In this document: in pieces, positions 2,589-34,127 of the stretch
How the letters are laid out: every line of letters starts with the position of its first letter
Position numbering within the stretch: position 1 is the stretch's first letter
DNA from: Erysipelotrichaceae bacterium
Lineage (GTDB): Bacteria > Bacillota_I > Bacilli_A > Erysipelotrichales > Erysipelotrichaceae
Length of the DNA stretch: 39,062 nt
Assembly: GCA_022767445.1 (NCBI GenBank)
Contig: JALENJ010000041.1
Coordinates: 1 to 39,062, forward strand
Direction of reading: 5' to 3'
Notes under the pieces: model-generated
Told to the model about the DNA's origin: nothing
What the model saw: the letters and a program-made list of their open reading frames with translations, nothing else
Databases searched by the model: none
Translations under genes and position numbers: made by a program

Positions 2589-3659
2589 ATGAAACACGTA
2601 TTAAGAAAAAGAGTAAAAAGAATATTAGCCGGTACACTTGCGACATGCATAATAGCGGGTGTAGCGATTGGATATATATCTGCAAAGCAGAACTACATCA
2701 ATAAACAGATGTTATTAACACAAAGCAAGCTCTACGATTCACTCAAGTTAAGTATGACTGGTGTAGATACTGCAGAGTATGGCAGCTCATTTGATTTACA
2801 TACTTTAGTGGCTGAACATACAGGTAATCTTAAGATTGATGGCGATATCAATGAGAATGCGATTGGTGCATACGCCATCAAGTTAACGCTATTTGGCAAA
2901 GAGAGTAAATTTGGTATCACAGATTCAAAAACCTTTACAACAAATGTAAAGGTCGTAGATACACAACCAGCAGTTATCACACTAGCACAGGATACTGTGG
3001 AGTTAAGAGCTGGTGCTTCCTATGATCCATATAGTAATGTGGCTTCCGTAGTTGATCCTGTTGATGGCTCTCTAACAGCTTCAGCTGAAAATGGAGCTGG
3101 TCTGTATACAGTAGCTGTTGATGGTGATACATCGAAGGCTGGTACATATACTGCAACTGTGACAGCCACAGATAAAAATGGCAATGTATCTACTGCTTCT
3201 TACACAATCCGTGTTACAAGAAATGTAGTCGCATCCATTGGTCCAGTTGATACTTCAGGTAACTATGAGTATATCTATGCATATCTAACAGGTACACTTG
3301 GACTATCCAGAGCTGCAGCGACTGGTGTATTAGCGAATATGTATCAAGAATCTAAGTTCGATCCTACTGCAGGTTCATCTTACTATGGGCTTTGCCAATG
3401 GGGTGGTGGTCGTCTGACAAACTTGATGAACTATTGTGCAAACAATGGACTAGACTATACATCTGTTGATGGACAGCTAGCTTTCATGACATATGAACTA
3501 AATGGATCATACAGCAGTACATTATCAGGCCTACAAAGTGTAGCCAATACTGCTGAGGGTGCAGCGGAAGCAGCTACTATCTTCGTATCGAGATACGAGG
3601 GAGCATCCCATACAGTAGGACGTGCTGAGCGAGCAACAGCCTACTTCTTAGCAAACTAA
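2589..3659 (+). CDS. Secreted phage-tail-lysozyme-domain protein
   Basis: A 356-aa exported protein. A basic N-terminus (MKHVLRKRVKRIL) precedes one hydrophobic segment (about 12-30), an uncleaved anchor or signal. The middle (about 130-215) is a bacterial Ig-like/HYR-type region containing DKNGNVSTASYTIRV. The C-terminal 130 residues match phage tail lysozyme domains: YIYAYLTGTLGLSRAAATGV, NMYQESKFDPTA with the likely catalytic Glu, then GLCQWGGGR. Such domains cleave peptidoglycan glycan strands and occur in cell-wall remodelling or conjugation proteins. ATG 2589 is chosen because it puts the basic residues at the N-terminus; an in-frame TTG at 2553 overlaps the promoter. It is a single-gene unit with its own terminator. 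Confidence 0.8.
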   Translation: MKHVLRKRVKRILAGTLATCIIAGVAIGYISAKQNYINKQMLLTQSKLYDSLKLSMTGVDTAEYGSSFDLHTLVAEHTGNLKIDGDINENAIGAYAIKLTLFGKESKFGITDSKTFTTNVKVVDTQPAVITLAQDTVELRAGASYDPYSNVASVVDPVDGSLTASAENGAGLYTVAVDGDTSKAGTYTATVTATDKNGNVSTASYTIRVTRNVVASIGPVDTSGNYEYIYAYLTGTLGLSRAAATGVLANMYQESKFDPTAGSSYYGLCQWGGGRLTNLMNYCANNGLDYTSVDGQLAFMTYELNGSYSSTLSGLQSVANTAEGAAEAATIFVSRYEGASHTVGRAERATAYFLAN

Positions 3660-3666
3660 TATATTC

Positions 3667-3710
3667 AAAAAGAACCTTCGAGTTGATTTACAACAAAGAG
3701 GTTCTTTTTT
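3667..3710 (+). terminator. Terminator of lysozyme gene (abuts IS end)
   Basis: AAAAAGAACCT (3667-3677) pairs with AGGTTCTTTTT (3699-3709), ending in T6. The right arm runs into the conserved ISL3 terminal sequence, so the IS end may form part of the terminator. Confidence 0.75.
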
Positions 3711-3765
3711 AGGAAATTTAAAACAACTTAGGTGAGAAAAGGTAGAAATCATAGATGAAGTAAAG
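3705..3765. repeat. ISL3-type terminal sequence, copy 1
   Basis: Starts TTTTTTAGGAAATTTAAAAC and ends with TCATAGATGAAG. It is about 85% identical to 4309-4368. It holds the stop codon end of the transposase remnant, so it is the IS end just beyond the transposase gene. Confidence 0.75.
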
Positions 3766-3994
3766 CGAAACGAACCCCATTTTTGAAACCTTTGGTAATC
3801 CTCTTTACTTTGTTTTTAAACTTAGTTGCTGAGAATGAAGTGGGTTTGTTTAGCACAAACATTGCACGATTTCTAAATCTATCAAAGTTTTGATATCCGT
3901 TAGCTAGATTCAATATAATCTTGATATATTTGTTTCTACCTTCTATAGGTCCATTCGTAACTCTAGCCTCTATCTTTCTTCTTTTCCCAGATGA
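3749..3994 (-). pseudogene. ISL3-family transposase C-terminal remnant
   Basis: On the minus strand about 80 codons remain open, running from an in-frame stop at 3995-3997 to a natural TGA at 3749-3751. The product contains NGPIEGRNKYIKIILNLANG, then YQNFDRFRNRAMF, the typical C-terminal segment of ISL3 transposases around the last catalytic Glu (in NGPIEG). Everything N-terminal is missing. It is a decayed insertion sequence marking the left border of the RiPP-like island. Confidence 0.85.
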
Positions 3995-4139
3995 TTAAAC
4001 GTTAAAAACGAGTACTAATAAATGAAAATTTTTTCATAATAAAGTAAAATTCACAATAATAAATGATATAAATGTAAGAAATAATGTTTAATTGTAAATT
4101 AGCAAGTATTAAAATATAAGCAAGAAGGAGGAAACTAAC
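3995..4139. other. AT-rich leader region of the precursor peptide gene
   Basis: Very AT-rich, with a small palindrome ATGAAAA-TT-TTTTCAT at 4022-4037 and a possible -10 TATAAA at 4067-4072. No well-spaced -35 partner is visible. It must hold the promoter of the small gene that follows, but I cannot fix it. Confidence 0.35.
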
Positions 4140-4277
4140 ATGAGCAATTTAAATACCTCTCAAGATGAAGTAATTGAAGTGTTAGATACTTCAGATTTAG
4201 AAAATCTTGAGGCAACTAGTAAACCTGCTGGTTGTAGTTGTGGTGGTGCTGGTGCTAGTGTTAGTGTGGGAGTCTAA
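4140..4277 (+). CDS. RiPP-like precursor peptide, 45 aa
   Basis: A 45-codon gene with near-perfect AAGGAGG (4125-4131), 8 nt before the ATG, and a strong terminator 9 nt after its stop. Residues 8-25 are acidic and leader-like (EVIEVLDTSDLENLEA). The tail, about residues 28-45, is small and polar with two cysteines, C32 and C34, in GCSCGGAGAS followed by VSVGV. A leader/core split, a C-x-C pair and a run of Ala/Ser/Val acceptors resemble thioether-type (sactipeptide or ranthipeptide) precursors. A decayed radical-SAM gene and an ABC exporter follow. No homologue is recognised by name; a thiazole-type core cannot be excluded, but no cyclodehydratase is present. Confidence 0.75.
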   Translation: MSNLNTSQDEVIEVLDTSDLENLEATSKPAGCSCGGAGASVSVGV

Positions 4278-4285
4278 AAATCAGT

Positions 4286-4314
4286 AAAAAAGTAGGCACT
4301 ATGCCTACTTTTTT
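4286..4314 (+). terminator. Strong terminator after precursor gene
   Basis: A 13-bp perfect stem, AAAAAAGTAGGCA (4286-4298) with TGCCTACTTTTTT (4302-4314), and a 3-nt loop. It would cap the precursor as a short abundant mRNA, a frequent arrangement between RiPP precursor and maturase genes. Confidence 0.9.
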
Positions 4315-4368
4315 AGGTAATTTAAAAAACTTGGGGATAGAAAAGCTAGGAATCATAGATGAAGTTGT
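4309..4368. repeat. ISL3-type terminal sequence, copy 2
   Basis: Same orientation and about 85% identity to 3705-3765, including the final TCATAGATGAAG with the minus-strand TGA. Reading further into the element meets stops at once, so only the terminal 60 bp survive. The two IS ends bracket the precursor peptide gene. Confidence 0.75.
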
Positions 4369-4420
4369 GCATCAGACTACACACTTAGTTTGCTTTGTTA
4401 TATGAAAAATTAACTAAAGG

Positions 4421-4449
4421 TTTACTATATGAATAAATGTATTTATGCT
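4421..4449 (+). promoter_or_regulatory. Candidate promoter of the maturase/exporter unit
   Basis: TTTACT (4421-4426), a 17-bp spacer and TATGCT (4444-4449), just before AAAGGGGAGG (4452-4461) and the ATG of the maturase remnant at 4471. It may now drive the ABC exporter. Confidence 0.45.
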
Positions 4450-4470
4450 GCAAAGGGGAGGTTAGTAAAT

Positions 4471-4845
4471 ATGATTTATTATGATAATCTTTTCGATATA
4501 TAAAAAGTTAATGACTATTATATATTGTGTTTGATTAAAACAATTTTAAAAGAGATGGAATATTTAATGAATAAAATGTGGCTGAAAACAAATTGTTAAG
4601 TATTGGAAAGTCTAATTTAAGAGATTTTCTCGTATGGAATAAATTATTTTCTATACCAGAGAAGAACTGAATAATAAAAAATTGAAAAATATATAGTGTT
4701 TTACGATAGATAAGATTTACTAGTTGCATATGTGTATCTGACGCAACGATGTAATTTGAACTGCTATTATTGGTATAATCAAAAATTTTTAAATAATAAT
4801 AAAGCAGAATTAACAACTGACGAATGAAAATAAGAAATATAGAAG
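4471..4845 (+). pseudogene. Decayed radical-SAM peptide maturase, N-terminal third
   Basis: AAAGGGGAGG and an ATG at 4471 open a reading frame that stops after 10 codons but continues recognisably: MIYYDNLFDI, stop, KVNDYYILC. A middle piece is open in another frame (NKLLSIGKSNLRDFLVWNKL, 4587-4665). The original frame returns with VAYVYLTQRCNLNCYYWYNQ, ending in FLNNNKAELTTDE. This is the CxxxCxxC region of radical-SAM/SPASM maturases; codons 4750-4752 and 4762-4764 are Cys, but the third position, 4771-4773, is TGG (Trp) instead of Cys. The motif lies about 94 codons from the start, as expected for sactisynthase-type enzymes with an N-terminal precursor-binding domain. The remaining barrel and SPASM domain are deleted. 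The gene is non-functional. Confidence 0.8.
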
Positions 4846-4875
4846 AAAACAAAAAAATTATGGAGGTGAGTTTTT

Positions 4876-6468
4876 ATGAAATTGAAAAATGTGCTTCGGT
4901 TAATTAAGGATAACGGTAGATACGTTGGTATTATTACAATTCTTGTAATTATTCAAGCGTTATTAGCATTCGTATTACCAATTACAGTATCAAGGGCTAT
5001 TGACGGTGATTTAGAAATTAAAAAATATTTAATTATTTTTGTGATTATTGTTATTACATTGCTGATTAACCTCTTGATTATTCAGATTAAAAAAAGTGCG
5101 ATTATAAAATATAAGCAGAATATTAACATGGAGATTTTTAATGAATTGGCAATGGTAAAATACGAGAAATACAATGAGAAGGGTGCGGCTTATTATATCG
5201 AGCGAATCGGAACGGCGGTATATCAATTCGCGGATTTTATCCTTACAACAATCCCAAGTTATATTAAAACACTTTTAACGATTATTTTATGTTTAGTATT
5301 AATTGGTAAAGACAGTTTAATGCTAATTGGAATACTAGTACTATTATTAATCATTCAGTATAACGGATATAAGGTTTTAAACATTCAGCTTTCGAAAAAA
5401 AGTAAGATACTTCAAGATGTATGCGCTGCACGCTTTGCAGATAATATTTCTATTTTTAATAATGTCGAATTTGTTAAACAATATGGAAGCTCAAACAAAA
5501 TTCAAAGCCTACTAAATCAAAATGTATATGATATTCACCGCGTAACAACGGATATCAATACATATGCAGGGAATTTCTACTATGTATTAAATAGTATCAT
5601 TACAAATCTTCAGTATGTTATGTATTTGATATTAGCAATCCTTCTTGCAAATAAAAGTATAGATATGTCTATGTTTCTATTCGATATCATGATTATTGTT
5701 ATTTGTTTTGAGGCATTTAATGATTTGATGACATTAAATGTAAACATGAAGGATGTGAATGCCTCTTTTGAATTCTTGACAAATGATATCGAAAATAATT
5801 TGGAGAGAATGGGTGGTAATGATATTGATCACATTAGAAGCATTGATTTTAAAGGTACTACAATTCAATATAAAAAGAATATCCTAATACAAAATATAAA
5901 CATGACGATTAATCAAGGAGATATTCTATTTATTTCTGGAGAAACCGGAACTGGCAAGTCTAGCTTCGTAAAATCATTAATAGGTTTTGTGGATGCGGAT
6001 AATATTTTTTTCAATGGTATTGAGCAAAATGAGATTCTCTTATCTTCATTGCGAAAGAGAGTGGCATATATATCGCAAATGAATTCCATTTTTAATGGGA
6101 CGGTAAAAGATAATATTGAACTAAATACTAATGCAAATCAAGAGTACGAAAAAATGTCATTTTTTGGTAAATTTATTGATAAGGGAAACCTGAAACTTAC
6201 TTCAGATGGAACAAATCTATCGGGTGGTGATAAACAGAAAATTGTATTAGGAAGATTAATTTCTAATTGCAAAGATGTAGATGTTATTATCTTGGATGAA
6301 GTAACGAGCTCAATGGACGCTGATACAGAAACAAAAGCTTTTGATGAAATTCTGCCACTGTTAAAAAATAAAATAGTACTGATCATTTCGCATAACAAAA
6401 ATCTTCAACGTTATGCAAATAGAATTGTAGAATTAAAAGATAAGACTATGATTGACATTTCAAAATAG
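4876..6468 (+). CDS. ABC exporter, fused membrane and ATPase domains
   Basis: A 530-aa half-transporter of the ABC exporter (MsbA/LanT-like) type. Residues 1-300 hold about six hydrophobic helices. The ATPase has Walker A GETGTGKSS (355-363), a Q-loop (AYISQM), signature LSGGDKQK (448-455), Walker B VIILDE (470-475) and an H-loop (IISHN). There is no N-terminal C39 peptidase domain, so it would export a mature peptide or act in self-protection rather than cleave a double-Gly leader. The start ATG 4876 follows GGAGG at 4862-4866. It is the only long intact gene of the RiPP-like island and is very AT-rich. The substrate is inferred from context only. Confidence 0.85.
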   Translation: MKLKNVLRLIKDNGRYVGIITILVIIQALLAFVLPITVSRAIDGDLEIKKYLIIFVIIVITLLINLLIIQIKKSAIIKYKQNINMEIFNELAMVKYEKYNEKGAAYYIERIGTAVYQFADFILTTIPSYIKTLLTIILCLVLIGKDSLMLIGILVLLLIIQYNGYKVLNIQLSKKSKILQDVCAARFADNISIFNNVEFVKQYGSSNKIQSLLNQNVYDIHRVTTDINTYAGNFYYVLNSIITNLQYVMYLILAILLANKSIDMSMFLFDIMIIVICFEAFNDLMTLNVNMKDVNASFEFLTNDIENNLERMGGNDIDHIRSIDFKGTTIQYKKNILIQNINMTINQGDILFISGETGTGKSSFVKSLIGFVDADNIFFNGIEQNEILLSSLRKRVAYISQMNSIFNGTVKDNIELNTNANQEYEKMSFFGKFIDKGNLKLTSDGTNLSGGDKQKIVLGRLISNCKDVDVIILDEVTSSMDADTETKAFDEILPLLKNKIVLIISHNKNLQRYANRIVELKDKTMIDISK

Positions 6469-6768
6469 ATCGAAGTAGTTATGTTTCAACTTAAATGCAA
6501 CAGTATATTGTATATGGCGAGTTTACAAAGGAAATGAAAAGAGATCCTGGTTACGATTGGATACAGTGAGTAGAAAGTAGGCATATATAGTATTACAAGG
6601 AGTAAGCTAAAATCATTATTCATATCGATTTATTTCTTGTTAAAGCAAATTGAGTATTGAGATTGTTTAGCGTATGGATCACTATAAGCGTGGTATTCGA
6701 GGAGATCCAATGCAACTACATCTTTTGTTCTTAATCAGAATTCATAAAGATAATCATTAAATGAGTTG
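6469..6768. other. Degenerate gap without a recognisable gene
   Basis: About 300 bp between the exporter and the next hairpin. All six frames are broken by stops. Short stretches such as EFTKEMKRDPGYDWIQ (plus frame) look like decayed coding sequence, but I cannot assign a family. No clear promoter or RNA structure was seen. Confidence 0.4.
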
Positions 6769-6802
6769 AGTAGACCTCTAAGTTGAATCTTAGAGGTCTA
6801 CT
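6769..6802. terminator. 14-bp hairpin, terminator-like without T-run
   Basis: AGTAGACCTCTAAG (6769-6782) and CTTAGAGGTCTACT (6789-6802) pair perfectly around TTGAAT. No U-tract follows on either strand, so it may be a degenerate terminator or a processing/protective hairpin. Confidence 0.5.
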
Positions 6803-6836
6803 TCGTTATGTGGGTATCCATTTTCATAGTGCAAAA

Positions 6837-6845
6837 TGCTATAAT
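6837..6845 (+). promoter_or_regulatory. Extended -10 promoter of phosphoesterase gene
   Basis: TGCTATAAT at 6837-6845 is a perfect extended -10. A weak TATCCA or TTTTCA lies upstream as a poor -35. Transcription should start near 6852, just before AAAGGAG at 6857-6863. Confidence 0.65.
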
Positions 6846-6869
6846 CTAGAAGTGTGAAAGGAGTAGTGC

Positions 6870-8795
6870 ATGAAGAAACTTTTACAATCATTCGCTGCGA
6901 TTGTACTGACGTTAACATCATCTTTATCAACGAAAGTATTCGCGGAAGAAAGTACACAGGATAACACTGGTGTACGTATTTTATTTACACATGATTTACA
7001 TGATCATATTGATCCATATAAGATAACAAATACAGAAACCAATCAAACGGAAGTCATTGGTGGATATGCGGCTTTGGCTGGGACAATTAACAGCTATCGT
7101 ACAGAGAATACAGTACTTGTGGATGCTGGGGATTTTTCCATGGGCACTTTATATAATTCATTGTTTGAGGACTATGCTCCAGATTTATCTTTATTAGCGA
7201 TGATGGGGTATGATGCGACAACGTTTGGCAATCATGAGTTTGACTATGGAATTGATTCTATAACGAAGATGTTGCAGAGTGCATCCCAAGCTCCAACGAT
7301 TCTTTCTGGTAATTTAGTCTTTGGTGATGACGAACAATCACAAGCATTCCAACAGGCATGGAGTGACAAGGGCGGTACTGACACTAAGATCATTGAACGT
7401 GGTGGATATAAGATTGGTATCTTTGCAGTGATGGGGAAAGATAGTATTGATTACATCGCAACTCCTGGTAATAATCACTTCAGCGATCAGATTGAAAGTG
7501 CCAAGGCAAGTGTTAAGAAGTTAAAGTCTGAGGGAGCACAGATTATCTTGTGCTTATCGCACAGTGGCACAAATGAGAATCCGAAACAATCGGAGGATGA
7601 AATATTAGCACAGAAGGTAGATGGTATTGATGTAATCATCAGTGGACATACACACACTGTTTTACAAGAACCTATTTATCACAATCATACATGGATTGTT
7701 TCGGCTGGCAGTTTTGGTAAGTATCTTGGAATGTTGGATATCAATCCTGAAACAAAGGAGAAGATTGATTATCAATTGATTCCAATTACAGCAGATAGTC
7801 CTGTGGATAGTAATATACAAGCACAGATTCAGGAGTATAAGGGATATGTAAACCAATATTTAGCACAATCTGAATATTCCATGGATCAAGTGATTGCACA
7901 TAGTAATTTTGCGATTCAGGATATTAATGAGGATTATACTTCCTTTAATGATAATGCGATTGGTGATTTGGTTGCGGATGCGTATGTATACGCAAGTAGA
8001 TTATCGACGAAGGATACAAGCTTTACGATTGGCTTGACGGCGAAGGGTATTATTCGCTCTGGGTTACCTCAGGGTGATATAACGTTGAGCGATATCTATG
8101 ATGTCAGCAGTTTAGGCAAGGATAGTGATGGTTTACTAGGATATCCTTTGATTCGAGTGTATTTGAAGGGCTCTGACCTGATGAAGGTAGCGGAGCTAGA
8201 CCGTAGCATCGGTAAGAGTATGATGGTGGATGGTCAACTGTATTTCAGTGATATGCAGTATCAGTACTCTGATTATCGTTTCTTCTTAAATCATGTCATT
8301 TCCACGGAAATACGAACAAATGCCGGTTTCTATATTCCACTGGATGAGGATAAGCTATATCCAGTGATTACCAATCTATATATAGCGAATATGTTGCCGA
8401 CGATTGGCAAGCGTACGATGAATCAATTAGAGATTCATACATATGACGCTTCAGGACACTTGATTGATAACTTCAATGACATGATACTCTACAATGCGGA
8501 TGGTACAGAGTTAAAAGAGTGGCAGGCAGTAACACGCTATATTTCTGATATGGATAGAGTAAATGGTATTCCAGAGATATCCAGTGAATACCAAGTAGCT
8601 AGACACCAAAAGATTGCCGATACAAAGTTTAGTTTCATTCGTTTCTTTAAAAATACATCTGCTTTTGGGTATCGTGTATATGTTTTCGGATTCATCGCTA
8701 TCGTTGTACTATTTGCGATTATCCGTTTAATTATCTTCTTTATCGCAAAGAGATATATGAAAAAAACAGGCAATCAAGCTGATGAATCGGAATAA
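6870..8795 (+). CDS. Surface 5'-nucleotidase/UDP-sugar-hydrolase-like phosphoesterase
   Basis: A 641-aa exported metallophosphoesterase. A signal peptide (MKKLLQSFAAIVLTLTSSLS..VFA) leads into the binuclear-metal motifs HDLHDH (D42, H44), DAGDFSMG, GNHEFDYG and SGHTH. A 5_nucleotid_C-type domain (about 345-560) contains NDNAIGDLVADAYVYA and TIGLTAKGIIRSGLPQGDI. A single C-terminal helix (YVFGFIAIVVLFAIIRLIIF) followed by KRYMKK anchors it in the membrane with the catalytic domain outside. The family hydrolyses nucleotides or nucleotide sugars to scavenge nucleosides and phosphate. It has its own extended -10 promoter and no operon partner. The exact substrate is not readable. Confidence 0.85.
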   Translation: MKKLLQSFAAIVLTLTSSLSTKVFAEESTQDNTGVRILFTHDLHDHIDPYKITNTETNQTEVIGGYAALAGTINSYRTENTVLVDAGDFSMGTLYNSLFEDYAPDLSLLAMMGYDATTFGNHEFDYGIDSITKMLQSASQAPTILSGNLVFGDDEQSQAFQQAWSDKGGTDTKIIERGGYKIGIFAVMGKDSIDYIATPGNNHFSDQIESAKASVKKLKSEGAQIILCLSHSGTNENPKQSEDEILAQKVDGIDVIISGHTHTVLQEPIYHNHTWIVSAGSFGKYLGMLDINPETKEKIDYQLIPITADSPVDSNIQAQIQEYKGYVNQYLAQSEYSMDQVIAHSNFAIQDINEDYTSFNDNAIGDLVADAYVYASRLSTKDTSFTIGLTAKGIIRSGLPQGDITLSDIYDVSSLGKDSDGLLGYPLIRVYLKGSDLMKVAELDRSIGKSMMVDGQLYFSDMQYQYSDYRFFLNHVISTEIRTNAGFYIPLDEDKLYPVITNLYIANMLPTIGKRTMNQLEIHTYDASGHLIDNFNDMILYNADGTELKEWQAVTRYISDMDRVNGIPEISSEYQVARHQKIADTKFSFIRFFKNTSAFGYRVYVFGFIAIVVLFAIIRLIIFFIAKRYMKKTGNQADESE

Positions 8796-33398: not shown

Positions 33399-34127
33399 AT
33401 GAAAGGACGCATACATTCATTTGAGACTTTTGGTGCAGTAGATGGACCAGGAGTACGCTTTATCATATTCCTAAAAGGATGTAATATGCGTTGTAAGTTC
33501 TGCCACAATCCAGACACATGGTTGATGGAAGGTGGAGAACTCTATACAGCACAAGAAGTTTTACAAAAAGCCATGCGGTATAAAAACTATTGGCAAAATG
33601 GTGGAGGAATTACCGTATCTGGGGGAGAAGCACTCTTGCAGATTGATTTCTTAACAGAGTTATTTGAACTAGCCCACAAACAAGGAATACACTGCACACT
33701 CGATACTGCAGGAAATCCATTTACCTATGAGGAACCATTCTTCTCAAAGTTTGAAAGACTCATGAGGGTAACAGACTTAGTCCTATTGGATTTAAAAGAA
33801 ATCGATGATAAAGTACACCGCTATCTAACAGGTGTAAGTAACGAAAACATCCTACAGTTAGCCAAGTATCTATCAGATCATCATATTCCAATGTGGATAC
33901 GTCACGTTCTAGTTCCTGGTATTACTGCGAATGAGAAAGATCTCGAGAATCTTAGAAAATTCATCGATACTTTAGAATCGGTGGAAAAGGTTGAAGTATT
34001 GCCGTATCATGTATTGGGGATACCAAAATACGAAAAGATGGGAATTGCATATCCATTAATGGATACACCCCAACCAACCAAAGAACAGATTGAAACAGCA
34101 GAAAGAATACTAGGAGTGAAGAAATGA
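33399..34127 (+). CDS. pflA: Pyruvate formate-lyase activating enzyme
   Basis: 242 aa radical-SAM enzyme. The Fe-S motif is C28-NMR-C32-KF-C35 (KGCNMRCKFCHNPDTW), with the SAM-binding ISGGEA-like VSGGEALLQ and the family start IHSFETFGAVDGPGVRFIIF. It abstracts hydrogen from the PflB glycine. The start ATG 33399 follows GGGGTGAG. Its end overlaps the phosphatase start by 4 bp. Confidence 0.97.
   Translation: MKGRIHSFETFGAVDGPGVRFIIFLKGCNMRCKFCHNPDTWLMEGGELYTAQEVLQKAMRYKNYWQNGGGITVSGGEALLQIDFLTELFELAHKQGIHCTLDTAGNPFTYEEPFFSKFERLMRVTDLVLLDLKEIDDKVHRYLTGVSNENILQLAKYLSDHHIPMWIRHVLVPGITANEKDLENLRKFIDTLESVEKVEVLPYHVLGIPKYEKMGIAYPLMDTPQPTKEQIETAERILGVKK

Follow-up and report, generated by a model that had tools for sequence, protein, structure and literature searches.

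A probable relic of a radical-SAM peptide maturase between a precursor-like ORF and an ABC exporter in an Erysipelotrichaceae bacterium

Introduction

What was once encoded between a short precursor-like open reading frame and an ABC exporter, and what became of it? The question is raised by the window, the whole stretch of DNA analysed here (contig C66, 39,062 bases long, one of the 74 contigs of a 1.91 Mb genome), in which the ~560 bases ahead of the exporter carry no intact gene on the plus strand. Radical-SAM enzymes are recognised by a CxxxCxxC motif, the three cysteines of which bind the SAM cluster, and the original prediction, made from the letters of the sequence, placed a dead peptide maturase of this kind in the gap, with the third cysteine changed to tryptophan.

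Here we report an analysis of this locus and its counterparts in other genomes. We put at about 0.86 the probability that a peptide-maturation locus, consisting of a precursor, a radical-SAM maturase and an ABC exporter, was acquired and has decayed in this lineage. The case is one of ordinary gene decay: the bacterium probably once acquired a peptide-making pathway, which it has now lost.

According to PMC8326336, many radical-SAM peptide maturases have an RRE, generally N-terminal, that contacts the leader, together with a C-terminal SPASM or twitch domain that contains one or two Fe-S clusters. Following this architecture, the intact ancestral enzyme would have held the leader with its N-terminal part and, by means of its 4Fe-4S cluster and S-adenosylmethionine, modified the core peptide; export of the product would have fallen to the ABC protein.

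Results

Cluster motif and its reading frame

The features of the locus are collected in Table 1.

Table 1. Features in and around the putative maturase relic (window coordinates)
Feature	Position	Strand	Basis
IS end, first copy	3704..3761	+	sequence comparison
ISL3-type transposase, C-terminal relic	3749..3964	-	PF01610, E 8.8e-6
Precursor-like ORF, 45 aa, intact	4140..4277	+	ORF list and translation
Hairpin, 14 pairs, T-rich arm, terminator or attenuator	4285..4315	unassigned	folding
IS end, second copy, 83-86% identical to first	4308..4365	+	sequence comparison
Putative radical-SAM maturase, 5' relic	4429..4827	+	motif, stop counts by frame
LTQRCNLNCYYWYNQ, CxxxCxxC cluster site with Trp (TGG 4771-4773) at third Cys	4738..4782	+	translation, NCBIfam, shuffles
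Junction, remaining barrel and SPASM codons missing	4828..4875	+	sequence reading
Exporter ribosome-binding site GGAGGTGAG	~4862	+	sequence reading
ABC half-transporter, 530 aa, intact	4876..6468	+	ORF, Pfam, NCBIfam

The cluster site reads LTQRCNLNCYYW at 4738-4773, with the codon of the first cysteine at 4750. Two of the three cysteines are kept (CNLNCYYW) and TGG, a tryptophan codon, occupies the third position, the pattern of a relic. LTQRCNLNCYYWYNQ lies in the plus-strand frame of 4429 and within a 31-codon open run (4732-4827), and so the reading through of stops on which the prediction had relied is needed upstream of the motif but not for the motif itself. An in-frame ATG at 4429 moves the relic start upstream of the earlier 4471 and makes the first cysteine codon 108 (codon 94 if counted from 4471); in the peptide-maturase models its position, read from alignment ends, is ~106 (StsB), 94 (geopeptide) and 88 (nif11), and codon 108 is within the range of peptide maturases. 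The motif and its Cys-to-Trp change are real in the letters, at the distance from the start that had been expected.

Might an AT-rich spacer simply have spelled out a radical-SAM-like motif? When 4278-4875 was dinucleotide-shuffled 5000 times, the looser pattern [ST]..CN..C arose 18 times, which leaves some room for chance, and the bare C...C..[CW] 96 times, but LT.RCNL.C did not arise once. The motif frame is also poor in stops: its 133 codons contain 7, whereas the other two frames have 17 and 16 and shuffled sequences 14.7 +/- 3.5. Since 14 NCBIfam models align at this same site in addition, we do not take the motif for an accident.

Homology to radical-SAM enzymes

These 14 models, all of radical-SAM type, matched a 49-aa piece of the relic (X at its one stop) at E <= 1, the best at 0.0056 and all far under their curated cut-offs; the 31-aa ORF alone matched 13 models at the same threshold. 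No single match is strong (best E 0.0042, with the 31-aa ORF), which counts against our explanation, as does the lack of any Pfam match for the relic pieces; the maturase piece matched no PDB sequence either. Weak singly, the NCBIfam matches are jointly consistent with a radical-SAM protein. The alignment extends beyond the motif on both sides, over residues 10-49 with the StsB model and over 33 residues at 33% identity with the closest relative fetched (L031; G337:C16 near 10816), so that a match confined to the motif, the outcome that was to refute the prediction, is not what was found.

On plasmids, tblastn with the 49-aa piece returned 14 records, weak (E 4 to 10) and all within residues 19-49 at the motif; two of the 14 carry a named feature there, pqqE and a radical SAM protein. 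In 148 of 395 genomes of the class there was some match at E <= 0.5, though many of these are obviously accidental. Nine of 30 such loci were inspected by eye, and a plausible radical-SAM CxxxCxxC was seen in seven (L030, L031, L032, L035, L038, L045, L046) but not in L040 or L053. Against fetched relatives the 49-aa piece scored 34.3 bits, compared with 28.9 for the best of 200 letter shuffles, a control that favours the real piece because the targets (L030-L058) had been retrieved with that same piece.

A chance origin of the motif would sit well with the short alignment and the missing Pfam match. It would have to explain as well why the alignments with models reach 40 residues, why the real piece outscores its shuffles, and why the site is flanked by a precursor-like ORF and an exporter, and we consider it very unlikely. 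Motif, stops and homology on both sides of the motif agree on a dead radical-SAM gene, as had been proposed.

Around CxxxCxxC the relic resembles the NCBIfam models of the StsB, PapB, geopeptide, nif11 and CbpB maturases, and in StsB, geopeptide and nif11 the motif stands roughly as far from the start. Unlike all five, it has tryptophan for the third cysteine, stops and probable frameshifts, only the first part of the barrel, and no SPASM domain. Of the ~107 codons that precede the first cysteine, the pieces tried match nothing. Because the ~90 residues before the motif gave no detectable homology to Pfam or to the fetched relatives, we can do no more than infer a leader-binding N-terminal domain.

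Two of the loci seen in these searches are themselves irregular. L031 encodes a SPASM maturase-like protein whose sequence is divided between two frames (308 and 159 codons). A radical-SAM/SPASM gene in a congener (L071; G012:C1 near 1502316) reads in one frame for its N-terminal half (152 codons) and in another for its C-terminal half (247 codons), adjoins an ABC-ATPase-like ORF, and is probably another broken maturase.

Extent of decay

The 5' piece (~4429-4824) is interrupted by six internal stops in the motif frame (4501, 4597, 4618, 4672, 4675 and 4711), and a seventh, at 4825, ends the open run. A gene-like open stretch in another plus-strand frame (~4575-4667) is what small insertions or deletions would be expected to leave, and such frameshifts in the 5' piece are probable. 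No continuous frame passes through the barrel, as the open run stops at 4825 and the exporter begins at 4876. The SPASM cysteine cluster is absent at the relic, the sole TIGR04085 match in the genome being on contig C1. The matched models of SPASM-type peptide maturases have lengths of 330 to 466 residues, and the relic retains at most ~132 codons; the remainder of the barrel, and with it the SPASM domain, has therefore been lost.

The prediction had singled out the Cys-to-Trp change as the key lesion. This emphasis does not hold: the greater part of the gene has disappeared, and what is left carries stops and probable shifts; the substitution is one lesion among many and undatable relative to the others. 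The likeliest course of events is that the lineage acquired the three-gene locus, that a deletion removed most of the maturase coding sequence, and that the remaining 5' part drifted, gathering stops, probable frameshifts and the Cys-to-Trp change, while precursor and exporter stayed open; the order of these lesions is conjectural.

The gap might instead hold a real short gene or a regulatory RNA, in which case the motif would be incidental. The longest ORF between the precursor-like ORF and the exporter is indeed a 105-aa minus-strand frame at 4535-4852, but it starts at TTG, runs opposite the motif frame and has no Pfam or NCBIfam match, and Rfam matched nothing in 3500-7000. We regard this reading as barely credible.

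Precursor-like ORF and exporter

The flanking genes are better preserved than the putative maturase between them. The precursor-like ORF lies just 3' of an AAGGAGG ribosome-binding site and encodes an acidic leader and a C-terminus of small residues with two cysteines; it belongs to no Pfam or NCBIfam family. The hairpin that follows (-16.7 kcal/mol, z -5.07) is terminator-like on the minus strand. The exporter is an ABC ATPase domain (PF00005, E 1.3e-19; GETGTGKS, LSGGDKQK, VIILDE and ISHN are seen in its translation) fused to a membrane region for which the match is weak (PF00664, E 0.074). It matches NCBIfam exporter models over its whole length, for instance NF045998 over residues 5-510, below the cut-off of that model, and no leader-peptidase domain was matched in it with Pfam.

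The order and sizes of precursor-like ORF, relic and exporter fit a RiPP locus, with a precursor outside the known families. The place of the relic between the other two likewise fits the proposal that an ancestor had a complete peptide-maturation locus; it counts against our explanation, however, that the precursor-like ORF can be placed in no family, position and composition being what suggest its link to the maturase.

With both flanking ORFs open and the maturase far gone, one may ask whether peptide and exporter were kept or reused after the death of the enzyme, an unmodified or otherwise modified peptide being exported and the genes remaining under selection. The good ribosome-binding site of the precursor-like ORF and the strong hairpin 3' of it would agree with this. 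A 45-codon ORF easily survives by chance, however, the exporter has no matched leader-peptidase domain, and the relatives searched gave no orthologs on which selection could be measured; we think such reuse unlikely, and decay of the locus the better account.

Downstream of the exporter, ~400 bases (6469-6869) contain no intact gene and perhaps represent further decayed coding sequence; a 20-residue piece from this stretch had no Pfam match.

Search for an intact locus and origin

The prediction had expected sister strains to carry the working enzyme. So far this has gained no support from relatives outside the species: an orthologous locus turned up in none of 69 congeners, nor in the genomes sampled from the order and class, nor in plasmids, phages and viral contigs. 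With the exporter as query, the searches of 70 genomes of the genus (E <= 1e-40) and 395 of the class (E <= 1e-30) returned the window's own genome only, and that of 315 genomes of the order (E <= 1e-28) returned four others (L085-L088) at 24-26% identity; the three sets overlap, and each contains the genome itself. In two of the four (L085 and L086), no maturase was seen among frames of at least 100 codons in a few kb each. A genome contig collection yielded three distant exporter loci (24-26%), viral contigs none, and phages 161 records, every one of which fell below 60% identity and short of 80% query coverage. Of 15 plasmid records the best was examined: CP026601.1 (Clostridiaceae bacterium 14S0207) encodes an ABC half-transporter 30% identical to the exporter over a 519-position alignment, but has no maturase among the 13 annotated features or the ORFs of the surrounding 17 kb.

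The precursor-like peptide was found in its own genome only among 272 genomes of the family, and in no plasmid or phage. Two other genomes among the 395 of the class gave matches at E ~0.09, which were rejected as chance from translations read by eye: one is a 37-codon frame with a stop in phage-like surroundings and the other lies inside an oxidoreductase-like gene. The literature searched, including the accessible parts of PMC8326336 and PMC13361665, contains no description of the locus, a result of little weight given that partial coverage.

GC content is 0.25-0.29 over 4001-6500, as against 0.34-0.42 in the remainder of the first 12 kb, and the end of the ISL3-type relic recurs between the precursor-like ORF and the maturase relic. 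Because the block is AT-rich and carries ISL3-type debris, our best reading is that horizontal gain of the precursor-maturase-exporter locus, followed by decay, would be the simplest explanation. Base composition and absence from relatives are what point to a horizontal origin; loss from all the relatives searched is the alternative. The locus adds a further trace of the turnover of modified-peptide loci, and, the precursor-like sequence lying outside Pfam and NCBIfam families, an intact relative, if found, could reveal a maturase with an unassigned substrate.

The two IS end copies flank the precursor-like ORF on both sides, and similar stretches occur close to contig ends on C37 and C51.

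Other radical-SAM genes and a second remnant

PF04055 matched ten places in the genome, eight of them over the cut-off and none on C1 or at the relic. The best of these we take to be MiaB, which modifies tRNA; another is presumably NrdG, the ribonucleotide reductase activase; and a third, in the window itself (33462-33941, after a 750-aa ORF), is assumed to be a pyruvate-formate-lyase activase. There was no sign in the genome of a second SPASM maturase that might act in trans, as TIGR04085 matches only a gene tail on C1, below its cut-off.

That tail is a stand-alone 106-aa ORF (C1:3139-3459; G000, L064) behind the ribosome-binding site AGAGGAGG, overlapped by a transporter-like ORF; the upstream ORF, which we presume to be HtpG, ends at 2893. 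It matches residues 362-460 of the 464 of NF040899 (ryptide maturase) at E 1.8e-23; the score stays far below the curated cut-off, as a fragment would be expected to do, and nothing at the locus corresponds to the first three quarters of the model. In the 70 genomes of the genus, NF040899 matched 19 at E <= 1e-4; besides the genome itself these are 18 in which the match is confined to model residues 72-292, a region that ordinary radical-SAM proteins would match too, and the tail occurs in none of them. Because the 49-aa piece from the window had no match to NF040899 at E <= 1, the tail does not supply the missing part of the window relic, and the two probably derive from different genes. The C1 tail is thus, like the window relic, a maturase remnant in the same genome, and suggests that losses of this kind have struck more than one pathway in the lineage; it preserves the end of its gene, whereas the window relic preserves the start.
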